34,154 nucleotides of DNA from Acidobacteriota bacterium (GTDB lineage: Bacteria; Acidobacteriota; Holophagae; Acanthopleuribacterales; Acanthopleuribacteraceae), in the NCBI GenBank assembly GCA_020439745.1, contig JAGQSC010000007.1, positions 1-34,154 on the forward strand. Direction: 5' to 3'. Below are positions 13,603 to 18,806 of the stretch, piece after piece (the first letter of the stretch is position 1; every line of letters starts with the position of its first letter). Below the pieces are notes generated by a model. That model had not been told where the DNA came from, ran no database searches, and saw only the letters and a program-made list of their open reading frames with translations. The translations under genes and the position numbers were made by a program.

Positions 13603-14799
13603 ATGTGGACCCTATTCGCTTTGTACATGTTTCAGATATCAGGCGAGCGTCTGGACACGCTTGTCGCAGCCTTGGATGGTGCCGTTGGCGGCGTGGCGGT
13701 GGACAAAACGGGCTTCATCTATGTGGCCGACTTCCGCAACAAGGTATGGCGAATTACGCCTGAGGGCGAAGTTGAAGTGTTTGCGGACTACCTTTATGGC
13801 GCATCCGGCAACCATATCGACGCCCAGGGTCGGTTGCTGCAGTCGAATTTCTTCGGCAACACGTTGACCCGCATCAATCGGGATGGGAGTCACGAAACAC
13901 TCACTACGGAGTTGAACGGACCTGTGGGGGTTACAGAACTAGACGATAGCGACATCGCTATTTGCAATTGCAGTGGCAATGAGGTTGTGCGACTGGACAA
14001 ACAGCGCAAGCTGGAGGTGATCGCCGATGGCGATTTGTTCAACTGCCCTAATGGCTTGAACAAAGGACCTGACGGCACCCTTTATGTCGCCAATTTCAGC
14101 GACGGTCGCGTGATCAAAATCGATTCCCAGGGTCAGGCACATTTGGTAGGTGTGGTGCCAGGTGGAGGCAATGGCCACTTGGTCTTGGTGGGCGACACGC
14201 TCTACGTGACGGGGTTTCGCTCGAACCGTCTTTACCGCTTGGGCCTCGATGGAACCGTCACGATTGCCGAGGGCTCGGGTCAGTTTGGTGTGGTTGATGG
14301 GTCGGGAGACCAGGCACAGTTCGCTTCGCCCAACGGCATTGCTTGGAACCCGACCCGCGACGAGTTGTACATCAACGACTACCTGGTTCCCTTTACCCAC
14401 CGAACACGCACGAAACCGCAAAGCGCATTGCGGCGTGTTGTGTTCCCCACCCTTACCGAAGCCTTTCAACAGGCCGACCAGCAATCAGGCATAGAAGCGG
14501 CCATCAAAGCGCATCGCAAGTACAAACAATCGAGAACCGGTAAGTTCACCGAGATCGAAACCAATATGCTCGGTTACACCTTGCTGCAATCCGGTAGAGC
14601 TGCAGACGCGATTCGAGTCTTCCAATGCAATACCGAGGATTATCCCAACTCATTCAACACCTGGGACAGTCTGGCAGAAGGTTACATGGTGGCTGGTGAC
14701 AAAGCCAATGCGGTGAAGTACTACCGAAAATCTTTGGCTCTGAATCCAAATAACCAAAATGCGGTGGACCGGCTCAAGAAGTTGGAATCGTCTCCTTAG
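13603..14799 (+). CDS. NHL/SMP-30-like propeller protein with C-terminal TPR repeats
   Basis: This is a 398-residue protein. Residues about 20-270 form repeated blades of NHL/SMP-30 type: GGVAVDKTGFIYVADFRNKV, CPNGLNKGPDGTLYVANFSD, NGHLVLVGDTLYVTGFRSNR and PNGIAWNPTRDELYINDY. Residues about 320-395 (LGYTLLQSGRAADAIRVFQC and a DSLAEGYMVAGDKANAVKYY unit) are two TPR units. Such propellers may bind ligands or act as lactonases; no specific activity can be read. A strong ribosome binding site AGGAGG lies seven bases before ATG. The N-terminus is hydrophobic but short, so export is uncertain. The 3' end overlaps the convergent DUF1295 gene by 26 bases. Confidence 0.8.
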   Translation: MWTLFALYMFQISGERLDTLVAALDGAVGGVAVDKTGFIYVADFRNKVWRITPEGEVEVFADYLYGASGNHIDAQGRLLQSNFFGNTLTRINRDGSHETLTTELNGPVGVTELDDSDIAICNCSGNEVVRLDKQRKLEVIADGDLFNCPNGLNKGPDGTLYVANFSDGRVIKIDSQGQAHLVGVVPGGGNGHLVLVGDTLYVTGFRSNRLYRLGLDGTVTIAEGSGQFGVVDGSGDQAQFASPNGIAWNPTRDELYINDYLVPFTHRTRTKPQSALRRVVFPTLTEAFQQADQQSGIEAAIKAHRKYKQSRTGKFTEIETNMLGYTLLQSGRAADAIRVFQCNTEDYPNSFNTWDSLAEGYMVAGDKANAVKYYRKSLALNPNNQNAVDRLKKLESSP

Positions 14800-15562
14800 A
14801 CCTCTTCGGCGGCAGTGGAAAGAAGGCGGACGTGACGGATTGGTAGTCGCGATAGGCATCCCCTTTGGACCTAACGGAACTCGCTTCTGCGGGCGGGATA
14901 CCCGTGACGAATAACAAAAAGAAGAGCATCATTATGGGGGAAAGCCAACCCCACCCGCTCTCGGGTGTCGCTGCCAAAGCGACGCCCACCCAAATCAACC
15001 ACTCAAAGAAGTAATTGGGGTGACGCGAATAGCGCCAAAGACCCACATTACAGACACGACCGGGCGAAGTTTGTCTGAAGAGCCGAAGTTGACGATCGGC
15101 AAGCGCTTCGCCGCTCCAGGCCACAATCACGACTGCGACCGCGATGAGGTCTATCCACAACCAGTGGGCACGGCCGACAATCCAAGCAAATGGCAGAGCC
15201 AAAATCAGTTGTAAACCGGCCTGGGCGAGGTAGAATCCGTAAGCCTTGAGGGTAAGGTGCTCCTTCCAATTATCTCTGATGACGGCATAACGCGGGTCAT
15301 CTCCCTTTTCGCTAAATAGACGCCTGCCAATGTGTAGCGCCAGACGCAATCCGTGGCCGCCAAACATGAGAGCCACCGCAACCCGCAAGACGAGCGACCC
15401 TTCCCCGAGCGCAGCATAGAGCACGGCCAATCCTCCAAGACCGAGTCCCCAGCCCACGTCCACCATGCCTAATTTCCCGGTCCTGAGGTACATCCACCAC
15501 CACAAGTGGATGTTCAACAGCACCCATGCAGTTCCGATCAGCGTAAGTTGCAGAACGCCCAT
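14774..15562 (-). CDS. DUF1295 (steroid 5-alpha-reductase-like) membrane protein
   Basis: This is a 262-residue polytopic membrane protein of the DUF1295 family, related to steroid 5-alpha-reductases and isoprenylcysteine methyltransferases. Visible hallmarks are GMVDVGWGLGLGGLAVLYAA near the start and the C-terminal motif RYSRHPNYFFEWLIWVGVAL, which in relatives binds the cofactor. A further sign is the ending YRDYQSVTSAFFPLPP. Start ATG at 15562 shares its A with the TGA of the upstream DUF1475 gene, so the two are translationally coupled. It is the last gene of the photolyase operon. The substrate is unknown; a lipid reductase role is only an inference from the family. Confidence 0.8.
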   Translation of the reverse strand: MGVLQLTLIGTAWVLLNIHLWWWMYLRTGKLGMVDVGWGLGLGGLAVLYAALGEGSLVLRVAVALMFGGHGLRLALHIGRRLFSEKGDDPRYAVIRDNWKEHLTLKAYGFYLAQAGLQLILALPFAWIVGRAHWLWIDLIAVAVVIVAWSGEALADRQLRLFRQTSPGRVCNVGLWRYSRHPNYFFEWLIWVGVALAATPESGWGWLSPIMMLFFLLFVTGIPPAEASSVRSKGDAYRDYQSVTSAFFPLPPKRSKETIPTS

Positions 15563-15882
15563 CAAAACACGTCCTTCAGCGATGTGTGTTTGGGCAGACG
15601 CATCAGGTGCAACCAGAAATAGAAGAGCGTGCCAAGACTGCCCAAGAGAAGAAAGGCCAGGGTCCAACACAACCTTGAAGCCCAACCGGGTTCATGGCGC
15701 CACATCCATAGCACCACCAGGGACATCGTGAGATAGAAATCCCACAGGGTGGCGCGCATCCAAGGGATGGCGCTCAAATTCTGCCACTCCACAAAAAGAT
15801 TACTCTCAAGAGAGGTTGCCACAATCACCCACAACATCCACAACCATGCAATCGCCGTTAGCACCCTCAATGCAACCATCAT
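15562..15882 (-). CDS. DUF1475 family small membrane protein
   Basis: This is a protein of about 106 residues with three membrane segments: VLTAIAWLWMLWVIVATSL, an amphipathic stretch then ATLWDFYLTMSLVVLWMW, and SRLCWTLAFLLLGSLGTLFY. The order, with a T-S-L-E-x-N-L turn and a D-F-Y-L motif in the second helix, fits DUF1475. The function of the family is not established. ATG at 15882 has AGGAGG five bases upstream; a GTG further out was rejected. Its stop overlaps the DUF1295 start by one base. It follows the photolyase gene by about 50 bases and is probably in the same transcript. Confidence 0.75.
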   Translation of the reverse strand: MMVALRVLTAIAWLWMLWVIVATSLESNLFVEWQNLSAIPWMRATLWDFYLTMSLVVLWMWRHEPGWASRLCWTLAFLLLGSLGTLFYFWLHLMRLPKHTSLKDVF

Positions 15883-15934
15883 TGGACCCTCCTCAACGAT
15901 TACTACGTGCAGCACACCCTATCTGGATCGGCAT

Positions 15935-17221
15935 CTAGGTCAGATTCCGGTAGCAAGCCAACGCACGCTTCCTAGCCCAAGCGTGATCCACCATAGGCAT
16001 GGGATATCTTTTTGTCCCCAATTCGGGCACCCATTGTTTGATGTAGGTTTGGTCAGGATCGAATTTCACGGCTTGAAGTTCCGGGTTGAAAATGCGGAAG
16101 TACGGCGCGGCATCACAGCCACAGCCGGCCACCCATTGCCAGTTGCCACAATTGGAGGCCAGTTCGAAGTCCAAGAGTTTACGTGCAAAATAGCGCTCGC
16201 CCCAACGCCAATCGATGATCAGGTCTTTGGTAAGAAAACTAGCGACTACCATACGCACACGATTGTGCATGAAGCCTGTCTGATTCAATTGACGCATGCC
16301 TGCATCCACCAACGGAAACCCGGTTGTGCCATCGCACCAACGCACAAACGCTTCTTCATCATGTTGCCAGGGGAACTGGCGAAATCGCTCCTTGAACTCC
16401 AGGTGGGTAATGGTGGGGTGGTGGTACAGATGTTGTTGGAAGAACTCGCGCCAGATGAGTTCCGCAAGGAACACATCGCTGATGTCACGGGCCAATGACA
16501 CGAGTTTTCGCGTACTGACCGTTCCAAATCGCAAATGAATGCCCAACTGGGTGGTCCCTTTGATTCCTGGCGAGTCGCGGTCTTGCGCGTAGCGAGCGAT
16601 CTGATCGGGGTCAACTTTAGCAGGAGACACGGAAATGGCGCTGCGTGAAAAACCCAGATCCGACAGGTCTTTGACCTCCCATTCTGGGGGTGAAGGATCC
16701 AGTCGGTGAAGCATGGACTCAGATGGGAACAACTCCAGTTGATGGGGCAAGGCTGCACACCAGGCTCGTTGATAGGGCGTGAAGACGCGAAAGTCGGACC
16801 CATCAGATGTCACAATATCGCCGCGTTCAAAGATGGCTTTATCTTTGAAAAGGTGTAGTTGAGCACCCATGTGTTCGAGGGCTAAGCGACAAGTTTCATC
16901 GCGTTGCATGGTGTCTGGCTCGTCATCGCGATTGGCAAACACGTCGGTGATGCCCGCCCCTTGGACCCACTTGGCCATCACCTCAACGGGATCGCCCAAG
17001 CCAACTTTGAGTCCACTACCGCGAGCGATCAAACGTTGGTCCAGCTCCTTCAATTGGTCCCAGATAAACGTGACGCGCGCATCGTCGCGATCTAAGTGAT
17101 TGAGGATGGACGGGTCAAATATGAAGACAGGCATCACCGAGTCGTGGCGGGTGAGCGCTTCAAAAAGCCCGCGGTTGTCTTCCAACCGCAGATCTCTTCG
17201 AAACCAGAATATCGCTTTCAA
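15935..17221 (-). CDS. phrB: Class I deoxyribodipyrimidine photolyase
   Basis: This is a 428-residue flavoprotein that should repair cyclobutane pyrimidine dimers using blue light. The N-terminal Rossmann region opens with AIFWFRRDLRLEDN. The FAD domain contains GTTQLGIHLRFGTVSTRKL, then ELIWREFFQQHLYHHP, WCDGTTGFPLVDAGMRQLNQ, and ASNCGNWQW, which keeps the asparagine and tryptophans expected near the flavin and in electron transfer. DAAPYFRIFNP and a Q-W-V-P-E-L ending follow, as in CPD photolyases. The start is TTG at 17221, overlapping the upstream stop as TTGA. A longer reading from 17287 would overlap by 70 bases and lacks homology. It is the second gene of a light-associated operon. Confidence 0.92.
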   Translation of the reverse strand: MKAIFWFRRDLRLEDNRGLFEALTRHDSVMPVFIFDPSILNHLDRDDARVTFIWDQLKELDQRLIARGSGLKVGLGDPVEVMAKWVQGAGITDVFANRDDEPDTMQRDETCRLALEHMGAQLHLFKDKAIFERGDIVTSDGSDFRVFTPYQRAWCAALPHQLELFPSESMLHRLDPSPPEWEVKDLSDLGFSRSAISVSPAKVDPDQIARYAQDRDSPGIKGTTQLGIHLRFGTVSTRKLVSLARDISDVFLAELIWREFFQQHLYHHPTITHLEFKERFRQFPWQHDEEAFVRWCDGTTGFPLVDAGMRQLNQTGFMHNRVRMVVASFLTKDLIIDWRWGERYFARKLLDFELASNCGNWQWVAGCGCDAAPYFRIFNPELQAVKFDPDQTYIKQWVPELGTKRYPMPMVDHAWARKRALACYRNLT

Positions 17222-18117
17222 GCCAGGAACTCTCGCATGGAAAACGCCCCCGGGTAAGGTGCCATAAACGTCTGCCGGTTCAGCCAATCCACCGGTCGCT
17301 GTTGCAGCGCCATTCGGAGCATGGAAATGGGTGCGGCAAATGGCAACCTCGCTTGTCGGTACGACTCAATCGCATCTGCAACCGCACGGCGCGCCGAGGG
17401 ATCCAATGACTTCTTAAAGAATCCCAGCGCATGGTACAGCACATTGGCCTGGCGTTTGTTGGACAAAGGTTGGGCAAGGCAAGCACGAAATCCTCTGGCA
17501 TAGTCTTGGAGCGTGTCTGCCGTGATCGGACCTTGACCGACAAGACGACCCAGTTGTCGGTACATGCGTTCATCATGGGCCATCAACTGCAGTTTGTGGT
17601 CGCGGTGGAAATCCATCAGTGCTGCAGGGCCCCGCTCCAATTGTTGTGACAGGCGATGGTGCGCAAAGACACGAGTCACAAAGCGGTCTCGAAGGCCCAA
17701 GTCGTTCAATCGGCCGTCGTCTTCCATGGGAAGATCTGGAAATGAACAGGCCACAGCGTCCGCAAATAGACCCCTACCCGTTTTGCTGTTGGGCACCCGT
17801 TCGATCCCACAACTGGGCGATTTGCGCTTCAGAATAAATCCATGTACCTCGCCAAACGAATCCATGAGGCGCTGCGACACTTGATCCATTTGACCGGTCC
17901 AGTCCTGACCGCTCTTGCTCTCCACCAGTCGCTGGTCAACCAACCGCAAGGTGGGTCGCGGCGAACCCATCCCCATCTCCATTTCTGGACATACGGGGAT
18001 CAGATCCACATGCTCCGCGAACGTTTGCGTCACCCAGCGATTGCGACAATGGCCCCCATCAAACCTGACAGGTTCCCCCAACAAACAGGCGGAAACCACC
18101 ACACGCGGTCGATCCAT
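17218..18117 (-). CDS. DUF523/DUF1722 fusion protein (TudS-like plus YbgA-like)
   Basis: This is a 299-residue two-domain protein. The N-terminal DUF523 half carries the three cysteines that bind a [4Fe-4S] cluster in thiouracil desulfurases: SACLLGEPVRFDGG (Cys11), VCPEMEMG (Cys43) and KSPSCG (Cys103). The C-terminal DUF1722 (YbgA-like) half includes FHRDHKLQLMAHDERMYRQL and KRQANVLYHALGFFK. The fused form is frequent beside photolyase genes. Desulfurase activity is known for DUF523 proteins; the role of the fused domain is not. ATG at 18117 has AGGAGGT six bases upstream. It leads the operon and is served by the promoter at 18136-18165. Confidence 0.9.
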   Translation of the reverse strand: MDRPRVVVSACLLGEPVRFDGGHCRNRWVTQTFAEHVDLIPVCPEMEMGMGSPRPTLRLVDQRLVESKSGQDWTGQMDQVSQRLMDSFGEVHGFILKRKSPSCGIERVPNSKTGRGLFADAVACSFPDLPMEDDGRLNDLGLRDRFVTRVFAHHRLSQQLERGPAALMDFHRDHKLQLMAHDERMYRQLGRLVGQGPITADTLQDYARGFRACLAQPLSNKRQANVLYHALGFFKKSLDPSARRAVADAIESYRQARLPFAAPISMLRMALQQRPVDWLNRQTFMAPYPGAFSMREFLA

Positions 18118-18135: not shown

Positions 18136-18165
18136 AACATGGCGTTTTGTTCATGTTTTGTCAAG
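18136..18165 (-). promoter_or_regulatory. Photolyase-operon promoter with CarH-type 11-bp direct repeats
   Basis: On the minus strand, TTGACA (18164-18159) is followed after 17 bases by CATGTT (18141-18136), a plausible -35/-10 pair. Two adjacent 11-mers, CTTGACAAAAC (18165-18155) and ATGAACAAAAC (18154-18144), form a tandem repeat with the shared pattern nTnnACAAAAC. This matches the nTnnACAn units described for operators of the B12-dependent photoreceptor repressor CarH. The repeats cover the -35, as expected for a repressor released by light. No CarH/LitR gene is in the window, so the regulator is inferred. Confidence 0.65.
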
Positions 18166-18184
18166 CTTTTATTTGGACAAACTA

Positions 18185-18415
18185 CTAGAGCCGGCGGTTT
18201 TGTAGGATGGCGCCCACGCTCGAGAAGGTGGAGACCAAATAAGGGACCATCACTGTGAGGCCCATTTTCAGGTACCTCGTCGGGTTCAGGTCGCCTTGCA
18301 AGATGGCGTCGCCGTGGTTGATGGCAATCAGAATCGTGCCTACGACGACCGCATAGGCAATTGCTCGACGCACGACAGATTTCGATAAGGCGGTTTCGAT
18401 CCAATCACTCTTCAT
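18185..18415 (-). CDS. nrtS: NrtS-like small membrane transporter protein
   Basis: This is a 76-residue protein with two membrane segments. The block VVGTILIAINHGDAILQGDL, then YLKMGLTVMVPYLVSTFSSV, matches the family annotated as nitrate/nitrite transporter NrtS, including N-x-G-D and V-P-Y-x-V-S-T. Assignment to transport rests on the family name only. ATG at 18415 overlaps the stop of the upstream gene as ATGA; a longer reading from 18550 is rejected because it would overlap that gene for most of its length. No other nitrate metabolism gene is nearby. Confidence 0.75.
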   Translation of the reverse strand: MKSDWIETALSKSVVRRAIAYAVVVGTILIAINHGDAILQGDLNPTRYLKMGLTVMVPYLVSTFSSVGAILQNRRL

Positions 18416-18669
18416 TTGGTCTGATAAGCCTTGATGGCAAGCAGGGCGCCCGTTTCGGCATCGATCTTCATCACCTTGTGACAGCGTTGTAACAGATCTA
18501 GACCCAACGATCCGCTGGGCCGATCGTCGTAGCTCATCAACACGATCCACAACTTGCCATCTTCACTCAGTTCGATCTCTTCCAAGTGAATCCGTTCAAA
18601 GGGATCATCGGCGAAGATCTCCTTGAAATGCCGCATAGCCGCCTGTGAAGCAGTTTTAATATCGATCAT
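18412..18669 (-). CDS. Small PepSY-like protein of unknown function
   Basis: This is an 85-residue soluble protein, MIDIKTASQAAMRHFKEIF and onward, with a beta-hairpin-like LEEIELSEDGKLWIVLMSYD and a C-terminal KVMKIDAETGALLAIKAYQ. The ending resembles the K-I-D-x-x-T-G-x-V strand of PepSY-like folds, but assignment is tentative. ATG at 18669 has GGAGGA five bases upstream. It is translationally coupled to the NrtS-like gene by a 4-base overlap. A two-gene operon is likely. Confidence 0.7.
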   Translation of the reverse strand: MIDIKTASQAAMRHFKEIFADDPFERIHLEEIELSEDGKLWIVLMSYDDRPSGSLGLDLLQRCHKVMKIDAETGALLAIKAYQTK

Positions 18670-18806
18670 GGGTTCCTCCGGTAATTGAAAGCCCAAACAC
18701 AAGGGCAACGTGACTGACGCATCCTGCCCTATCAAAACACGGATTTGGCATGGTGACCAACATGATCCAAGAGATTCTCAAACGCGGAATCCTCAAGATT
18801 TGCGGC

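Follow-up and report, generated by a model that had tools for sequence, protein, structure and literature searches.

The stretch of DNA analysed here (the window, 34,154 nucleotides from an Acidobacteriota bacterium) carries on its minus strand an operon encoding RudS, a DNA photolyase and two membrane proteins, preceded by a promoter region with repeated half-sites (Table 1). The first gene product, listed in an earlier note on this DNA as a DUF523/DUF1722 protein, is RudS, a tRNA 4-thiouridine desulfidase, as judged from its fusion of a TudS and a DUF1722 domain. RudS removes 4-thiouridine from tRNA, and its genes are often found in light-responsive operons, some of them together with photolyases and MerR-type regulators; one Pseudomonas operon under LitR control encodes PhrB, LitR and RudS (PMC11417400). 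The photolyase gene probably does begin at the TTG given in Table 1, and the same 4-bp overlap of rudS stop and photolyase start occurs in the sister genome (G001), where an ORF of 111 aa directly follows the photolyase gene. Further upstream of the operon, two short ORFs of 121 and 107 aa that overlap each other (18185-18735, minus strand) have no Pfam match.

Table 1. Features of the rudS-photolyase operon and its promoter (positions in the window)
Feature	Positions	Strand	Remarks
Inverted half-site TGTCCA (+ strand TGGACA)	18174..18179	-	exactly 9 bp upstream of repeat 1
Direct repeat 1 TTGACA	18159..18164	-	also -35; full 11-bp AAGCTTGACAA 18158-18168
Direct repeat 2 TGAACA	18148..18153	-	-35/-10 spacer; full 11-bp AACATGAACAA 18147-18157
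-10 element CATGTT	18136..18141	-	N17 from -35 TTGACA
rudS, first operon gene	17218..18117	-	TudS PF04463 E=4.3e-36 + DUF1722 PF08349 E=3.3e-28
DNA photolyase	15935..17221	-	likely TTG start at 17221 overlapping rudS stop (TTGA, 17221-17218)
DUF1475 membrane protein	15562..15915	-	domain match
DUF1295 membrane protein	14774..15685	-	domain match; start probably downstream of 15685

Ahead of the operon the minus-strand sequence is TAGTTTGTCCAAATAAAAGCTTGACAAAACATGAACAAAACGCCATGTTGTAGGTAGGAGGTGCAACATG, in which two TnnACA half-sites are spaced by exactly 11 bp. The earlier note had described adjacent 11-bp repeats that share nTnnACAAAAC and cover TTGACA, and the sequence bears this out: both CTTGACAAAAC (18165-18155, minus strand) and ATGAACAAAAC (18154-18144, minus strand) have this form, with TTGACA lying within CTTGACAAAAC. 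The match is real, but the frame chosen for the repeats is shifted with respect to the published CarH repeat, nnnnTnnACAn (PMC9304148), in which the units are those of Table 1. In this frame, two tandem 11-bp repeats lie over the -35 element and the spacer of the rudS promoter. The flanking 11-bp units match at most two of the four fixed bases, and an inverted half-site is present instead. As regards the class II LitR operator, T(G/A)TACA-N12-TGTA(C/T)A, no TGTACA was found in the 101 bp around the rudS promoter. The arrangement TTGACA-N17-xAxxTT is common to most rudS and carH promoters of the bacterial family, the -10 element at N17 being CATNTT before rudS/carH in G003, G005 and G006, TATTTT in G004 rudS and TAAATT in G001 rudS. 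This shared grammar fixes the -10 of the rudS operon at CATGTT, and it also accounts for the start, at 18136, of the interval marked in the earlier note.

The consensus -35 TTGACA by itself supplies one TnnACA and an A-rich spacer readily supplies another, so that a chance resemblance had to be considered. One TnnACA-N5-TnnACA pair was seen in the window against 0.89 expected by chance, and thus the window alone gives the pair no significance. The chance of an exact pair within the 150 bp before rudS is about 0.003, and TNNACAAAANNTNNACAAAA has a single occurrence in the 5.1 Mb genome, namely the rudS promoter.

The earlier note had placed a CarH/LitR homologue elsewhere in the genome and had let the idea of light control depend on its presence. 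Such a homologue is indeed encoded on another contig (G000:C2:212745-213662, G000 being the genome under study), and the idea survives. The protein, of 306 aa, comprises MerR_1 (PF13411, E=5.8e-13), B12-binding_2 and B12-binding domains, the last scoring under the cut-off set by Pfam. Among solved structures, the closest relatives of the protein are those of T. thermophilus CarH (3whp, E=3.4e-28; 5c8d, E=5.3e-28). CarH is also the top-scoring NCBIfam model (E=3.5e-40), but the 138 bits of the homologue are far below its equivalog cut-off of 400 bits, a naming and not a biochemical threshold. The top PDB fold matches of its AlphaFold model (pLDDT 86) are all T. thermophilus CarH (E=6.9e-16); the cobalamin domain of the model lies at about 3 A rmsd from that of CarH, and the orientation of the DNA-binding domain towards the other domains is unreliable. 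The protein has RAWERRY in the recognition helix (RxWERRY), WEAGKLSIAQEH (Wx9EH) and ESHEFG (ExHx2G), and retention of the latter two motifs is the criterion for CarH over CarA (PMC9304148). Within the longer signature D/ExHx2G-x41-SxT/V-x22-27-GG, ESHEFG is followed by exactly 41 residues, SIN in place of SxT/V, and GG at about the expected distance. Moreover, Glu is found where T. thermophilus has, after the Trp, the His that is a ligand of photolysed cobalamin. A cobalamin adenosyltransferase is encoded in the genome, so that AdoCbl can probably be made.

The same repeats had been predicted before other light-response genes, and they were found at the promoter of carH itself and, in related genomes, ahead of rudS and carH. 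The carH promoter contains TAGACAAATTCTTGACA, with tandem half-sites TAGACA-N5-TTGACA ending in the -35 element. Two TTGACA-containing pair patterns, searched genome-wide, gave 19 matches. Of the 16 whose context was examined, 12 fall within predicted ORFs; the four intergenic ones are those at carH, at the rudS operon, at a gene for a TatT-like lipoprotein (C33:69808) and at C6:131205. The lipoprotein gene (L083 3857-4717, G000:C33) has the full composite arrangement TGTCCA-N9-TTGACA-N5-TGGACA, and TTGACAAAACATGGACA, a pair near-identical to that at rudS, occurs both there and at G001:C8:865307. In this last region (L084 4790-6268, 6579-7106), TTGACAAAACATGGACA stands before an SDR-DUF2867 gene that is divergent from a CIA30 gene; a gene of the SDR-DUF2867 type also follows rudS in G005 and G006, which suggests a further putative member of a light regulon. 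The promoter of the fasciclin genes upstream of carH was rejected as a target, since the best pair there points to a divergent SRPBCC gene. On scanning, no exact pairs were found at the SQS_PSY loci of the genome. Across seven family genomes, triple TnnACA repeats at 11 bp occurred in numbers like those of a reversed-pattern control, with one match in this genome and none at carH or rudS. Finally, the intergenic TGTACAAAAACTTGACA at G000:C6:131205 (L085 2706-2722) adjoins an elongation-factor-P-like gene, named by eye, and no gene on its own strand is apparent within 800 bp.

Exact pairs lie upstream of rudS and/or carH in eight of nine distinct regions of the family, with 0.00-0.02 expected per region from shuffles. 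The eight are the rudS and carH regions of both G000 and G001, the intergenic regions shared by rudS and carH in G003, G005 and G006, and the carH2/rhodopsin region of G004; the ninth is G004 rudS, where two 7-of-8 matches stand in place of an exact pair. These counts are to be read with the facts that G005 and G006 are close relatives, the nine regions not all being independent, and that the G004 carH2 region entered the count because a pattern match lay there. The carH orthologue of G001 has the tandem pair in its own promoter too. Among four further carH homologues (L060, L062, L063 and L064) one has a pair upstream, and the nearest carH of G004 (L060) has none. The G004 carH2 locus (L102; G004:C318:64000-74000) brings together a photolyase, the CarH paralogue, a bacteriorhodopsin-like gene (PF01036) and a crtI-crtB fusion, with TTGACAAATTATAGACA (TTGACA-N5-TAGACA) between the paralogue and the rhodopsin gene. 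A chance resemblance could still appeal to the one pair expected in the window and to the 12 pairs within predicted ORFs, but the recurrence of pairs before carH, and before rudS/carH in five other genomes or regions, each with the low shuffle probabilities given above, together with an inverted half-site at a fixed 9-bp distance, makes it very improbable.

That the repeats serve some other regulator, of the MerR type or unrelated, whose half-site is similar and which has carH simply among its targets, is slightly less probable still. The genome does encode four MerR_1 proteins, but the three other than the CarH homologue are short (117-170 aa), with no room for a B12 module, and tandem TnnACA at 11 bp over the -35 is the form of a CarH site, occurs at the promoter of carH and accompanies carH from genome to genome.

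That the repeats form a CarH operator, at which AdoCbl-bound CarH would repress in the dark and from which light would lift the repression, has an estimated probability of about 85%, and it is supported by the pair in carH's own promoter, the conservation in relatives and the motifs and fold of the regulator. The presence of only two exact repeats, the 138-bit score, Glu for His, SIN, and the lack of a pair at L060 were counted against it. CarH does bind operators in which one or two repeats are exact and the others degenerate (PMC9304148).

An unlikely alternative is that the CarH homologue binds the operator and senses no light via AdoCbl, responding to another partner or signal, as in M. 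xanthus CarA or Pseudomonas class II LitR, the latter not being thought to use B12 (PMC9758184). The CarH paralogues L062 1468-2409 (G003), L063 1483-2442 (G005) and L064 1438-2394 (G006) have lost the B12 motif (GTYEFG for ExHx2G) and have Wx9KH; like CarA, these paralogues may regulate independently of B12. Moreover, the CarH-like proteins encoded divergently from rudS in G005 and G006 (L100 4728-5654, L101 4384-5310) keep ExHx2G and have Wx9KH or Wx9RH for Wx9EH. Both observations indicate that B12 independence probably arises in this family. Against this alternative, the copies of the present genome and of G001 keep both Wx9EH and ExHx2G, and the adenosyltransferase is encoded.

The third, inverted half-site is a feature that the earlier note had missed. 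TGTYYA precedes the first direct repeat by exactly 9 bp at six of eight sites in the genus: as TGTCCA at G000 rudS, G000 carH and C33, as TGTCTA at G001 rudS, and at the carH-adjacent SRPBCC genes of G000 and G001, where it precedes, by 9 bp, a degenerate TCAAAA followed by two more repeats. It is absent at G001 carH and G001 SDR. In 20,000 shuffles no orientation and offset was common to more than three of the eight sites; at the SRPBCC sites the first repeat was chosen after the offset had been seen, which flatters the count, and the other four sites alone exceed the null. Read on its own strand (TGGACAAA, TAGACAAA) the inverted half-site resembles the direct repeats, which makes the same protein its likely binder. 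CueR/SoxR-type sites have a gap of 5-7 bp, and a pure MerR-dimer palindrome made of the inverted half-site and repeat 1 was rejected because its 9-bp gap is wider. The chances are somewhat better than even that CarH of this genus uses a composite operator, in which an inverted TGTYYA is followed, after 9 bp, by two or three 11-bp direct repeats. One more DNA-binding domain of the CarH oligomer would then hold the DNA the other way round, which differs from the purely tandem binding seen with T. thermophilus CarH. At G000 carH, TGTCCA is part of the loop of a very stable hairpin (-25.9 kcal/mol). This hairpin (L006 8680-8730), situated between the fasciclin genes and carH beside the carH operator, may be a terminator overlapping the operator, the TGTCCA in its loop being coincidental.

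Known CarH proteins bind AdoCbl, sit in the dark on tandem repeats over promoter elements and are released in the light (PMC9304148, PMC8156234). By analogy, in the dark the AdoCbl-loaded homologue would occupy the two 11-bp direct repeats at rudS, and probably also the inverted TGTCCA, covering the -35 and the spacer and so blocking RNA polymerase. Light would break the Co-C bond of AdoCbl, CarH would leave the DNA, and the RudS-photolyase-DUF1475-DUF1295 operon would be transcribed. CarH would repress its own gene likewise, and possibly a few others, such as the SRPBCC gene next to carH and that of the TatT-like lipoprotein.

The CarH systems of T. thermophilus and B. megaterium (PMC9304148, PMC8156234) share with the present one a MerR-B12 protein with Wx9EH and ExHx2G and tandem 11-bp nnnnTnnACAn repeats over promoter elements. 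They differ in the number of repeats, three in T. thermophilus and four in B. megaterium against two exact ones here, in the target, a carotenoid operon instead of the rudS-photolyase operon, and, for T. thermophilus, in the His after Trp that is Glu here; the operators of T. thermophilus and Bacillus CarH are tandem-only, whereas an inverted half-site is added here. The P_crt operator of CarA/CarH in M. xanthus (PMC9304148) is also made of tandem 11-bp repeats with the -35 inside one of them, and inverted repeats were noted there as well; those are not conserved in relatives, and binding was ascribed to the direct repeats (PMC9304148), whereas here the distance is fixed at 9 bp at six of eight sites. 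The class II LitR proteins of Pseudomonas, PplR1 and PmlR2 (PMC9758184), are, like the putative regulator here, LitR/CarH-family repressors of a photolyase-containing light regulon, and RudS belongs to one Pseudomonas LitR operon (PMC11417400) as it does to the operon here. Their site is unlike the tandem TnnACA described here, and PmlR2 takes its signal from a LOV partner and is not believed to bind AdoCbl (PMC9758184). Described RudS systems (PMC11417400) resemble the present one in the TudS-DUF1722 fusion next to a photolyase and in the probable MerR-type light regulator, which in the present genome is encoded on another contig and not in the operon.

The switch would thus be of a known type, CarH, in one more organism, and the operator arrangement may be a new variant. 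No description of B12-based light control in this Acidobacteriota group was found in the literature; the present reading would extend such control to the group and connect it, beyond pigments, with DNA photorepair and the removal of 4-thiouridine from tRNA. The fixed inverted half-site offers a testable case of how the CarH oligomer arranges its DNA-binding domains, which bears on the reported plasticity of its operators. Furthermore, with an unlinked regulator, comparing promoters can reveal a connection that gene neighbourhood does not show.

Outside the family, exact pairs were found at two of 79 rudS promoters of other bacteria, loci at which a photolyase is nearby in 26 cases and a CarH-like gene in 24. 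The repeat operator was therefore rejected as a general feature of rudS; the repeats follow the CarH of the family and not rudS as such. Among the same outside promoters (L121-L200, 300 bp upstream), TnnACA-N13-TnnACA occurs in 7 of 79, more than any other spacing, and it may represent the site of another regulator or the repeated counting of related strains.
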